From Planctomycetota bacterium (GTDB lineage: Bacteria; Planctomycetota; UBA1135), in assembly GCA_004295085.1 (NCBI GenBank), contig SHNF01000002.1, forward strand, positions 372,001 to 436,000: 64,000 bases of DNA, read 5' to 3'. Each line of letters begins with the position of its first letter. Position 1 is the first letter of the stretch. The notes beneath the pieces are model-generated. The model was not told the origin of the DNA. It worked only from the letters and a program-made list of their open reading frames with translations, and did no database searches. The translations under genes and the position numbers were made by a program. This document shows positions 53,122 through 57,370 of the stretch, one piece after another.

Positions 53122-54228
53122 CTAGGCCGGGGCCGGAGGCGCCGCGCCTGCCTTCGATTCGGCGGCCACCTGGCTGAGGCCTTCCTTGAGGATGGCGAAG
53201 ATGAGCAGCCAGCCCACCAGGCCGATGATGATCTGCTGGATCGGCAGCGTGGTGTGCAGGATCCGGGTGTCCCACAGGCCGTGCAGGATGACCGCGACCA
53301 GCCAGCGCTTCACCACGGTCGGGTGCAGCAGCATGCCGAACTCGAAGGGGCGCTTGCCGCGCACCTTCCACAGCGCCGCGCCGATCATCCCGGTCCAGAT
53401 CACGTGCCCGAAGGGCGCCAGGAACGCGCGCAGGGAGATGTTGCTGAGGTCGCCGCTGCCGAACAGGTCCACGAACGCATAACCGGACGACTCGAAGCCG
53501 GCGAAGCCCGCGCCCACCGCGGCTCCGAACAGCAGCCCGTTGAGGATCCAGGGGTAGCGCGCGTTGCCGGCGATGAGCAGCAGCGCCGTCAGCTTGCCGG
53601 TCTCTTCGATGACGCCGGTGAGCAGGGCCGGCACCAGCTCCCCGGTGCCGGAGCCGCGGATCAGGTCGGCGATGACCAGCGTGGCGATCAGGCCGAGCGT
53701 CCCGCCGAACAGCAGCATCTTCCCGACCTGATACACGGACACGTTCTTGGGCGTGTTCATCTCGAAGAAGAACACCACCACCGCCAGCGGCACCAGGAAC
53801 GCGCCCACCACCAGCGTCCCGGGCAGGAAATTGATGTTCTCGAAGCTGGTGAAGCCCAGGCGCAGCAGGAAGTACACCAGCAGCGTGCCCAGCAGGATGT
53901 GCCAGTACACGCGCGGGCGCGGCCACTCGGTGGCGACCTGCGCCAGCGGCGGGGTCGTGCGCGGCGTGCCCACCGCGAAAGTCTCCTCCGCCGGCTCGTA
54001 CTTGTCGGGCCGCGTGAAGCCCGACAGCAGGATGTGGCGGATCGGCACGTCGTCGATCTCGGGCAGCTCGAGCAGCTTGAACAGCTTCGTGCGCAGGTCG
54101 CGCAGGATGTTGGGCGCAGGCGCCGGCGCGGCGCCGGGCGCTGCGGGCGGCGCGAAAGCCGCGGGAGGAGGCGCCGGGGCGGGCGGCGCTTGCGCAGTGG
54201 AACCCGATTCAGCGGGAGGTTCAACCAT
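53122..54228 (-). CDS. PrsW-family membrane protease
   Basis: 368 residues. A Pro/Ala-rich cytosolic region of about 110 residues, then eight or so membrane helices. The PrsW motifs are intact: TGVIEETGKLTALLL (EExxK), GAAVGAGFAGFES (FxxxE), FGHVIWTG (HxxxE/W variant) and VILHGLWD (HxxxD). PrsW cleaves anti-sigma factors such as RsiW in Bacillus, so a role in envelope stress signalling is plausible, but no sigma factor gene is nearby. ATG start; a terminator hairpin separates it from the selenoprotein operon upstream. Confidence 0.93.
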   Translation of the reverse strand: MVEPPAESGSTAQAPPAPAPPPAAFAPPAAPGAAPAPAPNILRDLRTKLFKLLELPEIDDVPIRHILLSGFTRPDKYEPAEETFAVGTPRTTPPLAQVATEWPRPRVYWHILLGTLLVYFLLRLGFTSFENINFLPGTLVVGAFLVPLAVVVFFFEMNTPKNVSVYQVGKMLLFGGTLGLIATLVIADLIRGSGTGELVPALLTGVIEETGKLTALLLIAGNARYPWILNGLLFGAAVGAGFAGFESSGYAFVDLFGSGDLSNISLRAFLAPFGHVIWTGMIGAALWKVRGKRPFEFGMLLHPTVVKRWLVAVILHGLWDTRILHTTLPIQQIIIGLVGWLLIFAILKEGLSQVAAESKAGAAPPAPA

Positions 54229-54269
54229 AGGAACGATGCCGGAGAGCGTGCTCCGAGGATAACAAGGCG

Positions 54270-54305
54270 GCGGGCCGGGCGCCTCGCTGGAGGCGGCCGG
54301 CCCGC
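54270..54305 (-). terminator. Strong GC hairpin after selenoprotein operon
   Basis: GCGGGCCGG (54270-54278) pairs with CCGGCCCGC (54297-54305), with an inner GCCTC/GAGGC stem and a GCTG loop. It lies 14 bases beyond the stop of selenoprotein 1 and 41 before the PrsW start. No long T-run. Confidence 0.6.
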
Positions 54306-54319
54306 GCTGGACGCCGCAC

Positions 54320-55450
54320 CTAGTTCTCGATCCTGACGCCGGCCTCGATGGTCTTGCGCATGACCTCGAGGTTGTCCTCGTCGAAGCCGACGGCGCGCCA
54401 CAGCACCTTGCCGTCCGGCCCGAGGATGTAGTTGGTCGGGTAGGCCTGCACGCCGAAGGCCCGGGAGACCGCGTCCCCCTCCTGCTGCACGGCGCGCAGC
54501 GTGAACTTCTCCTGGCTCCACCACTCCTCGATCACCTTCTTGTCGTCGCCGATGTTCACGCACAGGAAGACCACCTTGTCGCCCCACTTCTGCTGGACCT
54601 CTGACCAGAGGCTCTGGAGATGCGGCATCTCCACGACGCAGCCGCCTCAATGCCGGAACCAGAAGTTGAGGAGCACGGTCTTGCCGCGCAAGCCGGCGAT
54701 CGTGAGCGCCTGCCCGTCCATGCCGGTCATGCGCGCGTCGGGCGCCGCGCTGCCCACCGCCAGCAGGCTCGCTTCCATGTCGAAGCCGCCTCCGTCCTCC
54801 ATGACGGTGTAGCCTTCCGGCAGCTTGGCCGCGAAGTCGGCCAGGTCCACCTTCTCCGGCGTGCTCCAGCGGCTGAAGCTGAATTCGATCGCGGGCCTCT
54901 CCTCGCTGCCGACCCAGGTGGCGGCGACCACGTCGTTGCGCTCATCCACCCACAGGATCTCGGTCTTGTCTTCCGCCTGGAACTTCAGGCCGTCCACACC
55001 GGGGCGGGCGGCATCCTGGACCAGCTCCACCGACTCGGGAGCCGTGGCCTCTGGATCGCTCCAGACCCGCAAGGGGATGAAGTCTTGCACGAACGGGACG
55101 TCCGTGAGCTTGTCGCCGACTTCGGTGTAGCTCTTGGCGTCGACGTCCACCATGTAGACCTTCTGCCCGTCGGCCAGGTAGCTCATGCTCATGCCCTGCT
55201 GCTCCATCTTGAGCGTGCCGTGCAGCGGCCGGGCCAGACGCAGCTCGAAGCTGCCTTCGAGCTTCTGCGGCTCCGCGCCGTCCTCGCCGGGGATCTCCAT
55301 GTGGAACTGGAAGGCGGTGTCCACGGCGGCCGCCTTGCGCCACTGCGCCGCGGCCGCCTCGTAACGGGCGCGGGCCGGGTCGGCGGCGGGCGCGGGGTCC
55401 TGCCTGGCCGCCGCCTGCAACAGCAGCGGCGCGATCACGGTGATGATCAT
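54320..55450 (-). CDS. Selenoprotein: exported LolA/DUF2092-like domain fused to TlpA-type thioredoxin (UGGC), copy 1
   Basis: 376 residues if the in-frame TGA at 54647-54649 is read as selenocysteine (U268). Signal MIITVIAPLLLQAAA; residues 40-230 look like a LolA/DUF2092 lipid- or substrate-binding beta fold (FQFHMEIPGEDGAEPQKLEG, MSMSYLADGQKVYMVD); from 235 an AhpC/TSA-TlpA thioredoxin (LRGKTVLLNFWFRH-U-GGC-VVEMPHLQ; later AFGVQAYPTNYILGPDG with the cis-proline). The TGA stands where the first redox cysteine belongs and C271 completes U-x-x-C. ATG 55450 behind GGAG; 16 bases after copy 2. Without recoding the gene splits into a useless N-part and a headless thioredoxin. Role inferred: periplasmic thiol-disulfide exchange. 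Confidence 0.85.
54599..54633 (-). promoter_or_regulatory. Putative SECIS hairpins, selenoprotein copy 1
   Basis: Starting 14 nt after the TGA, the minus strand forms TGGAGATG/CATCTCCA (8 bp, 54615-54633). Next, at 37-48 nt, CTCT-GGTC-AGAG (54599-54610) makes a tetraloop hairpin whose GGTC loop equals that of the E. coli fdhF SECIS. The first hairpin sits at the usual bacterial distance from UGA; the second is slightly far. Which one SelB would use is unclear. Confidence 0.6.
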
Positions 55451-55466
55451 GGGTTTCTCCGGTTGC

Positions 55467-56558
55467 TCAAGGTGCGCCGGCGAGGCTCTGCTCCACGGCG
55501 CGCAGGATGGCGGCTTCATCGTAGCCGACGGAGTAGTAGCGGACCACGCCGTCCGGGCCGACGACGCAGTTGGTGGCGAGGGTGTGCACGCCGAAGGCGC
55601 GCGACACCTGGCCCTGCGGCTGTACCACCACCGGCATCGGGAAGCCCTGTTCTTTCCACCACTTGCGCACCAGGTCCGCGCCGTCGTTGACGTTCACGCA
55701 GTAAATGGCCACGCGGCTGCCCCACTTCGCCTGCATCTCTGACCAGAGATTCTGGAGACGGGGCATCTCCAGGCGGCAGCCGCCTCAATGGTAGGACCAG
55801 AAGTTCAGGAGCACGGCCTTGCCGGCCAGACCGGACAAGGGCTGCGGCTCACCGTCCAGGACCGGCAGGACCACGGCGGGCGCGCGCGTGCCCACGCCCG
55901 GCGCGGCGCCGGCGGAGCCGCCGAACAGGCTCTCGCGGCAGTAGTCCTCCGGCGGGCGGGCGGCGTAGTCCTGGATCTCGACCTCGGAGTGCGTGTGCCA
56001 GCGCAGGAATTGCAGGCGCACCACCGCGGCCGCGTACGAGTCGTAGGCGATGGCCGCCGCCACCAGCGCGTCGTCCCGGTCCAGCCACAGGTCCTGGTGC
56101 CCCTGGCGCAGGATCAGGCGCAGGCCGGCGGCGGCGGGCCGCGCGGCGTCCGCAGGCAGCCATTCCACGGAGACCGGCTGCGCCAGCGGCAGGCCCAGCG
56201 CGGCGCGCAGGGGCAGCAGGTCCAGGGCGTAGGGGATGTCGGACAGGCGCTCGCCCAGCTCCACGTAGGTGCGCCGCTCGTGGTTCACCGCGTGGATCAT
56301 GGCGCCGTCGGCCACGTACTCGATGCGCGCGCCGTTGCGCAGCATGGACACGAACCCGTTCAAGGGGCGCGCCAGGTGCACCTGCACGAAGCCTTCCAGC
56401 AGGTCGCCGGGGCCGCCGTCCTCGGCGGGCAGCTCCATGCGGTAGTCGTAACGCGCGTCCACCGCCGCCGCCTGCTTCCACCGGGCCAGTGCGGAGTCGT
56501 AGCGCGCGGCTGCATCCGTTTCCTGCAGCGCCAGCAAGGCCAGGCACAGCGCGTTCAT
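55467..56558 (-). CDS. Selenoprotein: exported LolA/DUF2092-like domain fused to TlpA-type thioredoxin (UGGC), copy 2
   Basis: 363 residues with the in-frame TGA at 55785-55787 read as selenocysteine (U258). Short signal MNALCLALLALQ, a LolA/DUF2092-like domain (YDYRMELPAEDG, EGFVQVHLARPLNGFV, IEYVADGAMIHAV), then the thioredoxin part: KAVLLNFWSYH-U-GGC-RLEMPRLQNLW, C261 resolving, later AFGVHTLATNCVVGPDG where the cis-proline region is altered (LATN for YPTN). The gene's own stop is also TGA, so TGA is not globally reassigned. First gene of a two-gene operon of tandem paralogues; divergent from plsC with 38 bases between starts. Confidence 0.85.
55737..55772 (-). promoter_or_regulatory. Putative SECIS hairpins, selenoprotein copy 2
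   Basis: CTGGAGA and TCTCCAG (55752-55772) form a 7-bp stem with a 7-nt loop whose second base is G, 13 nt after the TGA. CTCTGGTCAGAG (55737-55748, minus strand) is identical to copy 1 and at the same distance. Conservation at base level beyond what the protein needs supports an RNA signal. Confidence 0.6.
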
Positions 56559-56584
56559 GCGGCGATCGGGTTGCTGGAGGCTGG

Positions 56585-56590
56585 TAAGCT
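56585..56590 (+). promoter_or_regulatory. Candidate leaderless -10 box TAAGCT
   Basis: TAAGCT ends six bases before the plsC GTG at 56597, inside the 38-base gap to the divergent selenoprotein gene. Confidence 0.35.
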
Positions 56591-56596
56591 CCCGCG

Positions 56597-57370
56597 GTGA
56601 GCGGCGTCCAGGATACAGCGGCGTTCGACGCCCGGCCCGGAAGCCGCCTGCGCGGGGCCCTGGCGCTGCTTCCGGCCGCGCTGTTCGGCTTCGCGTATCC
56701 GGCCTACGCGATCCTGTACTCGATCGTGGCGCCGCGGCGCTTCCGCGAACGGCGCTACCGCATGCTGCGCTGCTTCGGCCGCGGCATGCTGCGCATCCTC
56801 GGCGTGCGCGTGGAAGAGCACGGCAGCGAGCACGTGCGCGCGCCCGGCCCCAAGCTTGTGATGTTCAACCACGTGAGCCTGCTGGACCTGTTCGTGCTCG
56901 CGTCGGTGTGGCCCGACGGCGGCACCGTCCTGTACAAGAAGGAGTTCCACCGCGTGCCCGTGATCGGCCGCGGCATGCGCCTGATGGACTTCATCGCCGT
57001 GGACCGGGAGAACCGCGAGCGCGCGTTCCAGAGCATCGAGGAGGCGGCGGCCCGCGTGCGCGCGCGCGGCGTGGCGGTGCTGGTGGCCCCGGAAGGCACG
57101 CGCTCGCGCCACGGCGGACTGCAGGAGTTCAAGATGGGGCCGTTCCATCTGGCCGTGGCCACGCGCGCGCCGGTGGTGCCCATGATCCAGCGCGGCATCG
57201 AGCAGCTGCAGCCCATGGGCGCGTGGCTGGTGCGGCCCGGGCGCGCGCGCATCGACTACCTGGAGCCGATCTCCACCGAATCCTGGACCCGGGACCAGGT
57301 CAAGCAGCGCGCCCCCGAGGTGCGCGCGCGCTTCCTGCGCTACCTGCCGCCCGCGCCAGGCACGTCCTGA
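56597..57370 (+). CDS. plsC: 1-acyl-sn-glycerol-3-phosphate acyltransferase
   Basis: 257 residues. An N-terminal membrane helix (LALLPAALFGFAYPAYAILYSIV) precedes the acyltransferase domain: NHVSLLD at 91-97 (catalytic His and Asp), KKEFHRVPVIGRGMRLM, APEGTRSR at 164-171 and VVPMIQRGIEQL. It makes phosphatidic acid from lysophosphatidic acid at the inner membrane. GTG start with TAAGCT six bases upstream. Convergent with the beta-oxidation operon. Confidence 0.93.
   Translation: MSGVQDTAAFDARPGSRLRGALALLPAALFGFAYPAYAILYSIVAPRRFRERRYRMLRCFGRGMLRILGVRVEEHGSEHVRAPGPKLVMFNHVSLLDLFVLASVWPDGGTVLYKKEFHRVPVIGRGMRLMDFIAVDRENRERAFQSIEEAAARVRARGVAVLVAPEGTRSRHGGLQEFKMGPFHLAVATRAPVVPMIQRGIEQLQPMGAWLVRPGRARIDYLEPISTESWTRDQVKQRAPEVRARFLRYLPPAPGTS

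Follow-up and report, generated by a model that had tools for sequence, protein, structure and literature searches.

The window, i.e. the whole stretch of 64,000 nucleotides that we analysed, carried on its minus strand a gene for a LolA-like/thioredoxin fusion protein together with a tandem paralogue. The downstream gene, copy 1 (54320..55450, minus strand), comprised 376 codons including an in-frame UGA and stopped at TAG. The initial annotation had described it as one frame split by a single TGA, and this was indeed the case: from 55450 to 54320 the sole interruption was the TGA at 54649-54647, located at NFWFRH-[TGA]-GGC. This codon (54647..54649, minus strand) was the predicted selenocysteine (Sec) codon, and the protein read ...GKTVLLNFWFRH-U-GGCVVEMPHLQSLWSEV... 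across it. The second Cys of the U-x-x-C was encoded by a TGC (54638..54640, minus strand) that was invariant in the 12 aligned rows. The ATG start was at 55450, where the database record P0003 also began, and a GGAG at 55457..55460 (minus strand), read from the sequence, was its likely ribosome-binding site. A second in-frame ATG was present farther upstream, at 55519.

The upstream gene, copy 2 (55467..56558, minus strand), had 41% identity to copy 1 and was separated from it by 16 bases; the two genes were likely co-transcribed. It contained its own predicted Sec codon (55785..55787, minus strand), which was surrounded by GKAVLLNFWSYH-[TGA]-GGCRLEMPRLQNLWSEM (TGA at 55787-55785) and formed the motif FWSYH-U-GGC. 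The terminal stop was TAG in copy 1 and TGA in copy 2, so that TGA was by our reading used in this gene pair as a stop and also as a sense codon. Tandem pairs were seen in at least three genomes (the window, G096, and G107). In G096, a longer paralogue (L064:1433-3748) just upstream of the TGA gene combined a LolA-like stretch with a thioredoxin-like domain that lacked the U-x-x-C pair (FWYRDQNSC). The neighbours of the window's pair were a PrsW-type protease downstream and a divergent acyltransferase upstream. They provided no functional hint: the ten flanking frames of the window and seven other loci, called mechanically, shared no Pfam family, and four of them had no Pfam match at all. An Rfam search of 54200-56700 with E up to 1 gave no match, and the viral contigs searched contained no relative.

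The C-terminal half of copy 1 was a TlpA/ResA-type thioredoxin domain (54329..54784, minus strand), where Redoxin and AhpC-TSA scored above the Pfam cut-offs (63.8 and 61.8 bits). None of the NCBIfam subfamilies ResA, DsbE, and TlpA was above its cut-off (best score for copy 1, 70.6 bits versus 170), and no NCBIfam model reached its cut-off for the fusion proteins. In the predicted structures, the C-terminal half was ResA-like and the N-terminal half (54827..55393, minus strand) was LolA-like. The N-terminus had been annotated as LolA/DUF2092-like. The LolA part of this label was retained, the predicted model having the LolA fold, whereas DUF2092 (PF09865) was dropped with 16.7 bits, below the cut-off of 21.2, in copy 1 only. 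Opposite the redox pair, 11 of the 12 aligned rows had a Pro in YPT or YPS, a candidate for the cis-Pro of the thioredoxin fold; the remaining row, copy 2, had LAT. At this place copy 2 read LATN, in contrast to the YPTN of copy 1 and of most relatives. The fusion was likely an exported thiol-disulfide oxidoreductase.

It had been proposed that the TGA fell exactly on the first Cys of the CxxC motif of TlpA proteins, and that its position among homologues should not be random. Among the best 80 of 100 confirmed public tblastn relatives, the aligned site was Cys in 68, TGA in 11, and Asn in one, which agreed with both points. Ten of these 11 TGA loci belonged to the close family. When 154 class genomes were scanned, this family stood out as 14 rows with E values up to 4.6e-36, after which the next value was 5.5e-19. 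These rows came from 11 genomes, with the window's two copies counted in. At the exact codon, 13 of them had TGA, at 32-44% identity to copy 1, and one (L040) had Ser. L040, from G107, had also lost the second Cys and was adjoined by an intact TGA copy. The named loci that carried the genes of the same-family genomes were planctomycete assemblies, including UBA1135, and L066 (UBA1135) was identical in sequence to L036 of G116.

These counts bore directly on the possibility that the TGA was a true stop resulting from gene decay or a sequencing error, with a shortened LolA-like domain as the product. Gene callers did end the protein at the TGA (P0003), and TGA was an ordinary stop in this genome, terminating 7 of the 11 window genes examined. 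Moreover, the N-terminal profile detected LolA-like genes without a thioredoxin domain, nearby at L063 and L068 in other genomes and at L153 in the window's own genome, and a family member from G117 (L224, E 1.3e-11) matched only in its N-terminal part, its frame stopping at a TAA ahead of the thioredoxin domain. However, a true stop would hardly recur at one codon in 13 of 14 rows, the window included, at such low identity; the thioredoxin domain downstream of the TGA was intact and conserved in the 12-row alignment, and there was conservation after the TGA at the RNA level as well (see below). We therefore considered the true stop very improbable. Chance or sequencing error as the source of the TGA was excluded, since 13 of the 14 close-family rows, from 11 genomes, shared the exact codon.

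The protein databases reflected the same site. Ten close-family records were found, of which nine, including the window's own P0003, had their last residue immediately ahead of the site, whereas P0006 continued with Ser. For four of the shortened records, the gene itself or a near-identical one could be read at the DNA level and had the TGA; the other five, known as protein alone, presumably end at the UGA as well. One of the shortened records, P0021, was added by a family-alignment search of the protein database.

A Cys form of the close family was found neither in the protein database, including the family-alignment search, nor in the class genomes; only the Ser forms L040 and P0006 were present. 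The protein searches scored 7999 and 7997 candidates and were restricted to proteins that had short words in common with the query. The homologues with Cys that the initial annotation had proposed to look for were thus found among the wider relatives and, at a greater distance, in P0013 and P0020, but not in the close family. P0013 (CGWC) and P0020 (CPPC) were detected with a query coverage of about 30-35%, and their profile alignments spanned both domains (332 and 334 columns, probability 99.6 and 99.2). They resembled the family in this respect and differed from it in having Cys in place of the UGA. The N-terminal profile with E up to 1 did not reach P0013 and P0020, and Pfam gave nothing above cut-off in their N-terminal halves. 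When applied to 22 proteins and 224 loci, the N-terminal profile revealed no further fusion with Cys. Since P0013 and P0020 aligned over both domains, similarly built fusions with Cys probably occur at a greater distance, as judged from sequence comparison. We had considered that the fusion existed exclusively in the Sec form, and this idea was dropped on account of the same two proteins; the absence of a Cys form holds for the close family only.

The window's own genome (18 contigs, about 90% complete) was searched for the Sec genes that had been suggested as a check, and selA, selB, selC, and selD were all above the curated cut-offs. The scores were 449.9 bits for selA (cut-off 267.9), 303.8 for selD (125), 264 for selB in a 669-aa frame (242.25), and 71.2 for tRNA-Sec, i.e. 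selC (47). ARAGORN independently confirmed a tRNA-SeC with the anticodon tca. Contig 6 carried the selA, selD, and tRNA-Sec genes next to one another, and contig 5 carried selB. The selD gene (L018:6684-7718) had its own in-frame TGA at residue 17 (CAG-U-AAK), and a 7-bp hairpin with the loop GUU was present 33 nt past it. Selenophosphate synthetase with UxxK is listed among the experimentally verified selenoproteins (PMC13188914, Table 1), so this TGA served as an internal positive control.

Across the family of the window's genome, selA was above cut-off in 22 of 26 genomes, and its presence there was therefore uninformative. Among the ten fusion-carrying genomes of this family (G065, from another family, was left out), selA was found in eight; G116 had fragments only and none was detected in G109. 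The case of G109 counts against the Sec reading, in assemblies that are incomplete.

The presence of this machinery was also relevant to the idea that a suppressor or an altered code made the UGA encode Cys, Trp, or Gly. A UGA-reading tRNA-Cys would likewise fit a TGA at a Cys site. Against this, TGA terminated neighbouring genes, copy 2 itself among them, and the genome encoded a full Sec system with a Sec-type SelD. Reassignment of the genetic code was unlikely since TGA was the terminal stop in most of the window genes examined, and decoding as any of these amino acids had, in our view, only a very small chance of being correct; the hairpins described below added to this judgement.

Downstream of the UGA, we found two consecutive hairpins that were together predicted to be a SECIS. 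In copy 1, the proximal hairpin A occupied 54616..54632 and the distal hairpin B 54597..54612 (both minus strand); the loop of B was GGUC (54606-54603), 40 nt past the UGA, and the support for A was weaker than that for B. In copy 2, A was at 55754..55770 and B at 55735..55750 (both minus strand), again with a GGUC loop (55744-55741). An alignment of the 60 bases past the TGA in 12 relatives was gap-free (the 13th TGA gene, from G107, ran off its contig). Given no input structure, RNAalifold folded it into hairpin A at columns 18-34 and hairpin B at columns 38-53, with four compensated pairs. Hairpin B had the GGUC loop in 12/12 sequences, always 40 nt from the UGA, and a stem of 5-8 bp (G-U pairs counted) in all 12. 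Its stem varied in a compensated manner, as in GCCUCU/AGAGGU, AUCUCU/AGAGAU, and ACUUCU/AGAAGU. The loop was similar to that of the E. coli fdhF element, which is GGUCU.

Several statistics supported this consensus fold. Compared with shuffled alignments, there were more compensated cells (13 versus 4.7), more paired cells (87.5% versus 80.7%), and a higher covariation score (0.267 versus 0.165), each with 0/500 shuffles. Pairs changed on both sides (5 versus 3.4, 78/500) and further pair types (10 versus 10.4, 380/500) were not raised. When the partners were slid by one to three bases, the paired cells fell to 31.5-44%. With the proteins fixed and synonymous codons resampled at positions taken from the consensus fold, hairpin B had 72 of 84 Watson-Crick pairs versus 41 expected (z 9.9, 0/5000) and hairpin A had 62 of 72 versus 41 (z 6.8, 0/5000), where the codon test, like the shuffles, ignores the relatedness of the genes. 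The Ser codon at loop B was TCA in 11 of 12 genes, as opposed to 5 of 213 Ser codons elsewhere in the same genes and 3 of 184 in eight neighbouring genes; therefore, the protein motif LWSEV appeared to be partly written by the RNA.

Folding energies gave a more uneven picture. Single-sequence folding of the two window elements did not differ significantly from their own shuffles (z -0.60 and -1.34). In the close family, the mean z of hairpin A was -0.58 versus -0.48 in Cys controls. The proximal segment beat synonymous controls at p<0.05 in 2 of 12 family genes versus 2 of 31 Cys genes, and the distal segment with hairpin B did so in 5 of 12 versus 0 of 31. One family member (L140) failed a stricter criterion of five Watson-Crick pairs.

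This stricter criterion was used for genes beyond the family. A SECIS-like hairpin was defined as having at least 5 Watson-Crick pairs and a loop of 3-5 nt starting with G and then G or U, 16-42 nt past the codon. The background rate was about 8% (86 of 1044 TGA triplets of the window). Of the seven window genes that were terminated by TGA, one passed, and the terminal TGA of copy 2 had no such hairpin. In a first set, which included the family behind the idea and on which the 42-nt limit had been fixed after viewing, the hairpin was present in 20 of 24 TGA genes versus 4 of 81 Cys genes. A second set consisted of 40 further TGA matches, taken by rank, and 20 stop-free matches, likewise taken by rank but with a few near the top skipped. 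The TGA was on the first-Cys codon in 40/40, and the stop-free matches had Cys in 19 cases and Ser in one. With the criterion unchanged, 35 of the 40 TGA genes had the hairpin versus 1 of the 19 Cys genes, though many of the 40 fall in few subfamilies and are not independent cases. This enrichment in both sets argued against the insertion of another amino acid at the UGA and for Sec. The loop distance in the 35 genes was 31 nt in 17 and 38-39 nt in 14. No hairpin, even with four pairs, was found in two TGA genes, L026 from the window's own genome and L173.

The loci behind these observations (L043-L056 and L164-L203, from the 154 class genomes) suggest, at the level of sequence, that thioredoxin-like proteins throughout this class of planctomycetes commonly have TGA at their first Cys. 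Among 19 more distant loci that were fetched first, 7 had TGA at the first Cys. The window's own genome contained further examples. L142 (C1:761900-765400, match C1:763420-763815, minus strand; assessed for hairpins as L026) was TlpA-like with FWGFW-U-GPC and without a SECIS-like hairpin. L143/L156 (C8, about 7970; assessed as L030) was thioredoxin-like with FWAMW-U-VSC and had a hairpin of 6 Watson-Crick pairs with the loop GUU at 30 nt. L153 (C7:70924-71253) was AhpC-TSA-like with YSL-U-PTC and had a 7-bp hairpin with the loop GUU at 26 nt; the LolA-like gene without a thioredoxin domain mentioned above was located at the same locus.

A further alternative concerned the role of hairpin A. 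Sec could be inserted with the GGUC hairpin B alone as the SECIS, hairpin A being a by-product of the GC-rich codons of EMPxLQ. The proximal 33 nt of the family indeed folded no better than in the Cys controls, and the core pairs of A lay in GAG and CTC codons and never varied because these codons were invariant. Additionally, proximal folding was found in 13 of 27 short-spaced Sec genes, where this segment overlaps the G-loop hairpin. On the other hand, the excess of Watson-Crick pairs in helix A with the proteins fixed was not reached in 5000 resamplings, and in long-spaced Sec genes outside the family the proximal segment beat the synonymous controls at p<0.05 in 14 of 21 cases versus 2 of 31 Cys genes, the codon usage of the window's genome being applied to all genes in these controls. 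We regarded hairpin B alone as a serious contender, with a probability somewhat short of even. In the two-hairpin arrangement, we infer that hairpin A would serve as a folded spacer.

Taken together, it was very likely that the two genes belonged to a conserved family in which a UGA at the first redox-Cys of a TlpA/ResA-type thioredoxin domain is decoded as Sec, directed by the downstream pair of hairpins. According to the mechanism that we propose, SelA and SelD would make the Sec-tRNA, which SelB, bound to the GGUC-loop hairpin, would bring to the ribosome at the UGA. Because the intervening hairpin would fold away about 17 nt, the otherwise distant GGUC loop would come within reach. The protein would be exported, and its LolA-like half-barrel may bind a lipid, a lipoprotein, or another hydrophobic partner. 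The U-G-G-C centre could then act on the bound partner as a fast thiol-disulfide oxidoreductase, where Sec would attack and Cys would resolve; the candidate directions of the reaction are those of a reductase, an isomerase, or a peroxidase. In a broader hypothesis, to which we assign an even chance, this lineage evolved a long-reach two-hairpin SECIS (a G-loop hairpin 38-41 nt past the UGA, which exceeds the accepted limit of 37 nt, and a proximal spacer that compensates for this distance) and converted many thioredoxin-like proteins to Sec, including the LolA-thioredoxin family with no remaining Cys form.

Computational selenoprotein finders require a SECIS located 16-37 nt away, homologues with Cys, or both (PMC13188914, PMC12013277). 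The fusion family breaks the distance rule, and among the close relatives searched none had a Cys form, although two distant proteins did; nine of the ten close-family records accordingly end at the UGA, five of them presumably. Confirmation of the two-hairpin SECIS would mean that the limits of SelB-dependent decoding must be revised, and many overlooked selenoproteins of this bacterial class could then be annotated. Moreover, a LolA-type partner domain would suggest that a redox step in the cell envelope depends on selenium and takes lipid- or lipoprotein-bound substrates.

Among known systems, the fusion can be compared with thiol-disulfide oxidoreductases of the ResA/TlpA/CcmG type, from which it differs by the UGA in place of the first Cys, the preceding His, and the extra domain in front. 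The identity of that domain to the LolA/RseB half-barrels was about 6-19% among the matches listed, and the fusion was not classed as LolA. The nearest selenoprotein model was the ResA-like WAxxUGC motif-containing protein (NF041054), whose name marks a Sec-type motif. Its ResA-like fold is alike, but the fusion scored 31-39 bits versus a cut-off of 300, and the motif of the model is UGC whereas that of the fusion is UGGC.

Published lists already include UxxC proteins with Sec in redoxin-, TlpA-, or Prx-like domains (PMC13188914, PMC2398784), and other planctomycetes have been described as having selenoproteins (PMC4807772). The redoxin/thiol-disulfide isomerase-like proteins (PF08534 or cd02966, UxxC) and the Prx-like oxidoreductase (PF00578) of PMC13188914, Table 1, share with the fusion the thioredoxin fold, Sec at the first Cys, and a bacterial SECIS downstream. 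These entries of the table name no LolA-like domain, a distinction that is drawn from their descriptions. Most bSECIS have a distance of 16-37 nt from the UGA to the apical loop according to PMC13188914, in comparison to 40 nt in all 12 sequences of the fusion family. The ocean metagenome study PMC2398784 (Figure S1) likewise showed Prx-like selenoproteins fused to extra domains; the partner that it names is a distant secretin domain and the rest are unnamed, so that, compared by description, one of the unnamed partners may match ours. In the open-licence literature, we found no LolA-thioredoxin selenoprotein, nothing on selenoproteins of UBA1135-type planctomycetes, no two-hairpin bacterial SECIS, and no loop distance of 40 nt. 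The initial annotation had flagged a LolA-like/thioredoxin fusion with UGGC as apparently undescribed, and its claim of novelty could be kept for the fusion but not for the Sec-containing redoxin, which is already listed in PMC13188914. Thus, Sec in redoxins was known, while the LolA-thioredoxin fusion and its long-spaced, perhaps two-hairpin SECIS look new.
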